Shown here: piece after piece, positions 16,188 to 16,330 of the stretch
Layout: every line of letters begins with the position of its first letter
Position numbering within the stretch: position 1 is the stretch's first letter
Source of the DNA: Dermabacter sp.
GTDB lineage: Bacteria; Actinomycetota; Actinomycetes; Actinomycetales; Dermabacteraceae
Direction of reading: 5' to 3'
DNA length: 64,000 bases
NCBI GenBank assembly: GCA_030538475.1
Contig: JAUNTX010000006.1
Location: 65,593 to 129,592 of the forward strand
Translations under genes and position numbers: made by a program
The notes under the pieces: generated by a model
The model's database searches: none
What the model was told of the DNA's origin: nothing
What the model saw: only the letters and a program-made list of their open reading frames with translations

Positions 16188-16253
16188 GGCTCCAGCATAG
16201 GCAGTGCGGCTGGGCTCGCCTAGGATGGACCTGCCCGCCACCCGCGGGCACCG

Positions 16254-16330
16254 GCCCCCATAGCCCAACTGGCAGAGGCAGGAGACTTAAAATCTTCCAA
16301 GTGCGGGTTCGAACCCCGCTGGGGGTGCCA
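16254..16330 (+). tRNA. tRNA with anticodon UAA (Leu by anticodon) but short variable arm
   Basis: A complete cloverleaf of 77 bases with encoded CCA (16328-16330). The acceptor stem GCCCCCA pairs with TGGGGGT (first pair GU). The D stem has three pairs (GCC/GGC) with GG in the loop. The anticodon stem GGAGA/TCTTC encloses loop CTTAAAA, giving anticodon TAA. The variable region is only five bases (16298-16302). The T arm is GCGGG-TTCGAAC-CCCGC. The discriminator is G. The anticodon reads the leucine codon UUA, but normal bacterial leucine tRNAs have a long variable arm and A73, so the amino acid it carries is uncertain. Confidence 0.9.

Follow-up and report, generated by a model that had tools for sequence, protein, structure and literature searches.

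A short-arm tRNA gene with a UAA anticodon

The window, the whole 64,000-nucleotide stretch of Dermabacter sp. DNA that was analysed, contains a single tRNA gene, which ARAGORN identified as tRNA-Leu(taa) (Table 1). The Rfam model RF00005 covers positions 16254-16327 with 54.7 bits against a gathering score of 29 (E 5e-9), and on these values a match by chance is excluded. Read directly, the RNA is GCCCCCA-UA-GCCCAACUGGCAGAGGC-A-GGAGA-CUUAAAA-UCUUC-CAAGU-GCGGG-UUCGAAC-CCCGC-UGGGGGU-G-CCA. In this 77-nt molecule U8 and A9 join the acceptor stem to the D arm, A26 follows the D arm, the anticodon stem is GGAGA/TCTTC, and the T arm is GCGGG-TTCGAAC-CCCGC. The initial annotation had described a 77-base tRNA of the class I form that has a UAA anticodon, a five-base variable region, G73, and an encoded CCA, and this description is confirmed by ARAGORN, RF00005, and the sequence.

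Table 1. Features of the tRNA-Leu(UAA) locus (positions in the window)
Feature	Position	Strand	Evidence and remarks
tRNA-Leu(UAA), class I body, encoded CCA	16254..16330	+	ARAGORN, Rfam RF00005; kept in genus and order
Acceptor stem, 5' strand GCCCCCA	16254..16260	+	Partner 16320-16326 (TGGGGGT), G1.U72 wobble; sequence and alignment A1
D arm GCCCAACTGGCAGAGGC	16263..16279	+	C12 C13 A14 A15 G18 G19 A20a, signature of the short-arm leucine subtype
Anticodon UAA in loop CUUAAAA	16288..16290	+	ARAGORN
Variable region CAAGT, 5 nt	16298..16302	+	Sequence; U48-A15 Levitt pair
Discriminator G73	16327	+	Nearly all relatives have A73, as do all scored viral copies among the matches listed
Encoded CCA	16328..16330	+	Sequence
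TAGGAT, possible -10 element, weak	16221..16226	+	About 28 nt 5' of the tRNA; sequence

Valid structural evidence for this tRNA comes from conservation and the covariance model and not from the minimum-free-energy fold. When computed from the sequence alone, that fold is not a perfect cloverleaf and is no better than those of shuffled sequences (z -0.74); a poor fold of this kind is not unusual for tRNAs.

The tRNA departs from canonical class II tRNA-Leu in two respects, since that class has a long variable arm of at least 10 nt and A73, and this molecule has the 5-nt region CAAGT and G73. The core determinants of tRNA-Leu (A14, A15-U48, G18G19, and A20a) are all present in its sequence and conserved in alignment A2, in which U48 is invariant, and the D-arm signature C12 C13 A14 A15 G18 G19 A20a is invariant or nearly so in alignments A1 and A2. 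It also has the D arm GCCCAA-GGYAGAGGC and the short variable region ending in U48 that define a short-arm subtype; A73 is usual but not invariant in this subtype and was not used as a defining feature.

A helicase-C-domain protein is encoded on the opposite strand next to the tRNA gene, and downstream lies a gene for a protein that we take to be YggS-like from its family, Ala_racemase_N. No prophage or mobile-element features were seen in the adjoining genes, no strong flanking gene was shared between this locus and those of relatives within 1.5-kb flanks that would indicate conserved synteny with yggS, and a scan found no consensus promoter or terminator near the tRNA gene. TAGGAT could be a -10 element of the actinobacterial type, and a similar element, TATACT, lies 5' of the tRNA in most loci of a family in our sample, f34.

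The host genome (2.53 Mb in 13 contigs, scored 100% complete) contains 47 tRNAs by an Rfam tRNA scan with ARAGORN run on each, and the gene described here is the only one among them with a UAA anticodon. The search for a second, class II tRNA-Leu(UAA) that the initial annotation had proposed found none among the 47 tRNAs, and the class II UAA pattern had no match in the genome. The other four leucine tRNAs (CAA, CAG, GAG, and UAG) are class II, 83-87 nt long, and have A73. One LeuRS scored above the family cut-off, and the remaining matches were weak.

Distribution and leucine specificity of the short-arm body

By BLAST, the tRNA has matches in 54 of 58 relatives, and a pattern search identified a class I gene in one further genome that BLAST had missed (G010). 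For two of the relatives, G048 and G054, neither UAA pattern (class I or class II) gave a match, and their UAA tRNA may be divergent or missing. In all 30 of the relative loci that were fetched, the anticodon is UAA and the variable region is short. The general short-arm form is also present in Nocardia farcinica and, by BLAST, in Nonomuraea and Arthrobacter. The initial annotation had suggested, with reserve, that similar genes exist in other actinobacteria and had called for a comparison across them; the suggestion was right, as homologs occur across the order and the phylum, and the comparison showed that the short-arm UAA tRNA is widespread.

Nearly all of the 30 loci have A73. G73 is found throughout the genus (all four members) and in one further member of the family. 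Among named organisms, it is carried by Dermabacter hominis, Helcobacillus massiliensis, Brachybacterium equifaecis, a Nostocoides, Pseudokineococcus, and Quadrisphaera. Because these carriers sit in several lineages, G73 probably arose several times. In genome G053 (locus L285, G053:C20; 1483-1567 and 1608-1700, minus strand), a class II tRNA-Leu(UAA) with G73 adjoins an odd tRNA-like gene, which ARAGORN calls Ile(UAU) and whose anticodon and T arms are separated by an insertion of unusual length.

The amino acid specificity of the body was analysed by a search with an open anticodon, in which the body GCCCAA-GGYAGAGGC plus a short variable region was sought in the Actinomycetota sample and in viral contigs. 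In the phylum sample, 50 of 50 body matches have leucine anticodons (UAA, CAA, or UAG). Among the viral matches listed, leucine anticodons are present in 86 of 86 copies (80 loci kept; UAA 38, UAG 23, CAA 19, CAG 3, and GAG 3), so that all five leucine isoacceptors and no other anticodon occur on these viral bodies, and every listed copy with a well-formed acceptor stem has A73. Genes of this kind, in most cases annotated as tRNA-Leu, are present in sequenced phages of Escherichia, Bacillus, Enterococcus, Pseudomonas, Rhodococcus, and cyanobacteria. These data show that the short-arm body is leucine-specific across genomes and viruses.

Two further observations concern the allocation of body plans. 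Some of the viral contigs (loci L303-L382) carry two or three class I leucine tRNAs (L348, L355, L364, L366, and L373). Six genomes of family f45 (G087, G124, G145, G167, G199, and G210), have class I tRNAs with CAA and/or UAG together with a class II UAA tRNA, the reverse of the allocation in the Dermabacter genome.

In a sample of 246 genomes from the phylum, the class I UAA pattern was found in 36, the class II UAA pattern in 104, and both in none (Fisher p 2.9e-10, indicative only because the genomes are related). The other 106 genomes match neither pattern, and, since the patterns are deliberately strict, the absence of a UAA tRNA from them is not implied. The rule on which the initial annotation relied, that leucine tRNAs of bacteria belong to class II and have A73, thus fits the four remaining leucine tRNAs here but is not general, because class I UAA tRNAs occur in 36 genomes and the short-arm bodies of both the phylum sample and the viruses have leucine anticodons only.

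The family f34 contains both UAA forms, sometimes within one genus, where G280 has the class II form and G249 and G260 have the class I form. The loci in this family are orthologous, with upstream proteins identical in kind and distance; between G280 and G260/G249, these proteins have 91-94% identity at -1481 and 72-77% immediately upstream. The two forms share the acceptor stem GGGGGCG/CGCCCCT, the T stem, and A73. They differ in the variable arm, in the D stem (G9 G12 G13 in class II versus A9 C12 C13 G23 in class I), and in the anticodon stem. Across the UAA leucine tRNAs that were read, C12 C13 is constant in class I, and class II has G12 with G or A at position 13; from established tRNA tertiary structure, one would expect the variable region to be coupled to position 9 and to the pairs 12-23 and 13-22. 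As the locus is syntenic and the acceptor stem, T stem, and A73 are common to both, one form appears to have been converted into the other in place, through mutation or recombination and whichever of the two came first.

Meaning of UUA and alternative roles for the tRNA

The meaning of UUA was assessed by comparing 824 kb of this genome with 1.6 Mb from a sister species, whose tRNA also has G73. This comparison used 327 non-overlapping homologous gene pairs (best pairs kept, median identity 68%) with 98,016 well-aligned codons; 11 of these are UUA here and 30 in the sister species (0.11 and 0.31 per 1000 codons, respectively). Where UUA stands opposite another codon, leucine is found at 27 of 37 informative sites against a background of 10.1% (binomial p 1.7e-19), a conservation close to that of other leucine codons (76-83%); the next-best residues are found at 2 sites each, and serine at 0 of 37. 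From the leucine at 27 sites and the absence of serine, we conclude that by codon alignment UUA is leucine in this G73-bearing lineage, with the qualification that the result rests on 37 sites and shows what UUA means and not which tRNA delivers it.

Based on these comparisons, this gene, the only one in the genome with a UAA anticodon, very probably encodes an elongator tRNA-Leu for UUA, one that belongs to a short-arm subtype widespread in bacteria and phages. This agrees with one option of the initial annotation, a UUA reader. The departure from the textbook form that the initial annotation had noticed is real, but the tRNA is a member of this widespread subtype and the departure is not a sign of recoding.

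The same annotation had considered that charging might be weak. If the tRNA were poorly charged or inert, UUA could be read inefficiently as a regulatory rare codon, like the one served by bldA in Streptomyces. The extreme rarity of UUA and the expected weakening of LeuRS recognition by G73 are consistent with this view, but the high GC content also explains the rarity, conserved genes still contain UUA, and all four members of the genus have kept the tRNA with G73. We consider this explanation unlikely.

SerRS requires a long variable arm, which this tRNA lacks, and serine is absent from the 37 sites. Both points argue against ambiguous decoding, in which a G73 tRNA would be partly charged with serine or otherwise mischarged, leaving UUA mostly leucine with some noise. 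The idea draws on the presence of G73 here and on human tRNA-Leu, in which the change of A73 to G73 is by itself enough to give serine acceptance (work cited in the review PMC9976931) and A73 keeps SerRS off; we regard it as very improbable.

A phage tRNA of recent acquisition that serves outside translation, for example as a decoy for an anticodon nuclease, would fit the presence of the same body in phages and a match of 97.5% over 40 nt to Pseudomonas phage PHB09. Such an origin has still less to recommend it, as conservation of the tRNA extends across the order, where it is the only UAA tRNA, the form is mutually exclusive with class II, and its helicase-like and yggS-like neighbors show no prophage features; the non-translational role raised by the initial annotation thus found no support.

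Recoding of UUA, in which another synthetase charges the tRNA and UUA specifies a different amino acid, could be suspected from a sole UAA tRNA whose class I body and G73 are unlike canonical tRNA-Leu, but we rejected it as scarcely credible, because UUA aligns with leucine, the body carries only leucine anticodons, and class I replaces class II at the orthologous f34 locus.

Leucylation, G73, and relation to known tRNAs

The initial annotation held that LeuRS uses both the long arm and A73. According to a review (PMC9976931), E. coli LeuRS uses A73, A15-U48, G18G19, and A20a but not the anticodon; leucylation in E. coli does not correlate with long-arm sequence or folding, and human mitochondrial LeuRS charges a tRNA-Leu that lacks the arm. 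The arm is thus dispensable in E. coli, but the premise about A73 is right for that organism, where A73 is crucial and the G73 of tRNA-Ser is an anti-determinant for LeuRS (PMC9976931). Because that premise is right for E. coli, G73 remains the only truly odd feature of this tRNA, one that recurs in several lineages. By analogy with E. coli, G73 would count as evidence against the leucine-tRNA reading.

The short-arm tRNA keeps every listed LeuRS determinant except, in this gene, A73. We infer that the single LeuRS would charge it through the acceptor end and the D-loop and core nucleotides A14, A15-U48, G18G19, and A20a, without a long arm. More speculatively, because SerRS could not bind in the absence of a long arm, the need for A73 may be relaxed, and G73 may then have drifted in within some lineages. 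The class II UAA tRNA with G73 in G053 is a counter-example to the simplest form of this idea, in which only the lack of competition from SerRS matters.

A broader reading is possible, and we put it forward tentatively: bacterial leucine tRNAs may have two interchangeable body plans, between which a single gene can switch in place as the variable arm is lost or gained together with coupled changes at 9, 12-23, and 13, and the relaxation of A73 without competition from SerRS may have led to a second leucine identity set in entire actinobacterial orders.

Annotation software, tRNA-seq pipelines, and identity studies all build on the rule that the tRNA-Leu of bacteria is class II, and isotype models may flag short-arm tRNA-Leu genes as misfits. 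Whole actinobacterial groups depend on a class I tRNA-Leu for UUA. The near-identical class I and class II pairs at one locus within one genus are natural experiments on LeuRS recognition, and the G73 lineages allow one to ask whether the main role of A73 is to exclude SerRS. Engineered LeuRS/tRNA pairs might also be built on short-arm leucine tRNAs.

In the open-licence literature we found no explicit description of a class I bacterial tRNA-Leu, although an earlier one may exist elsewhere; the exception is a passing mention of a short-loop tRNA-Leu(TAG) in Mycobacterium mucogenicum (PMC6582537). The tRNA-Leu(TAG) of M. mucogenicum and M. phocaicum resembles the present one in its short variable loop, leucine anticodon, and actinobacterial host, but it is supernumerary, lying in a tRNA cluster that includes an HNH gene while a normal class II copy is also present (PMC6582537), whereas the Dermabacter gene is chromosomal and the only UAA gene.

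Among other known systems, the class II tRNA-Leu(UAA) of the Streptomyces bldA type shares with the short-arm form the anticodon UAA, the loop CUUAAA, A14, A15-U48, and, in most, G18G19, as well as the f34 locus with its acceptor and T stems and the inferred function. The Dermabacter tRNA differs from it by the absence of a long arm, by C12 C13 with G23 in place of G12 with G or A13, by A9 where class II has G9 as a rule, and by G73 in place of A73. Metazoan mitochondrial tRNA-Leu(UUR) likewise lacks a long arm and is charged by LeuRS using A73 and A14 (PMC9976931), but it is organellar, with a degenerate cloverleaf, A73, and a separate origin. The allo-tRNAs (8/4 and 9/3 cloverleaves) are also unusual tRNAs and candidates for recoding; identity with them was rejected from the RF00005 alignment, in which the Dermabacter tRNA has a 7-bp acceptor stem and a 5-bp T stem, making a normal 12-bp branch, and it has no long arm.

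The phage class I tRNA-Leu genes (for example those of wV8 and Bacillus phage P59) have the same D-arm signature and A15-U48 and occur in UAA, UAG, CAA, CAG, and GAG versions, but they have A73 throughout and lie in tRNA arrays. Streptomyces phage Wofford carries a second short-arm tRNA-Leu(UAG) (L082, 281-356) that has the D arm GGCAAATTTGGCAAAGCC and A73 and falls outside the subtype.
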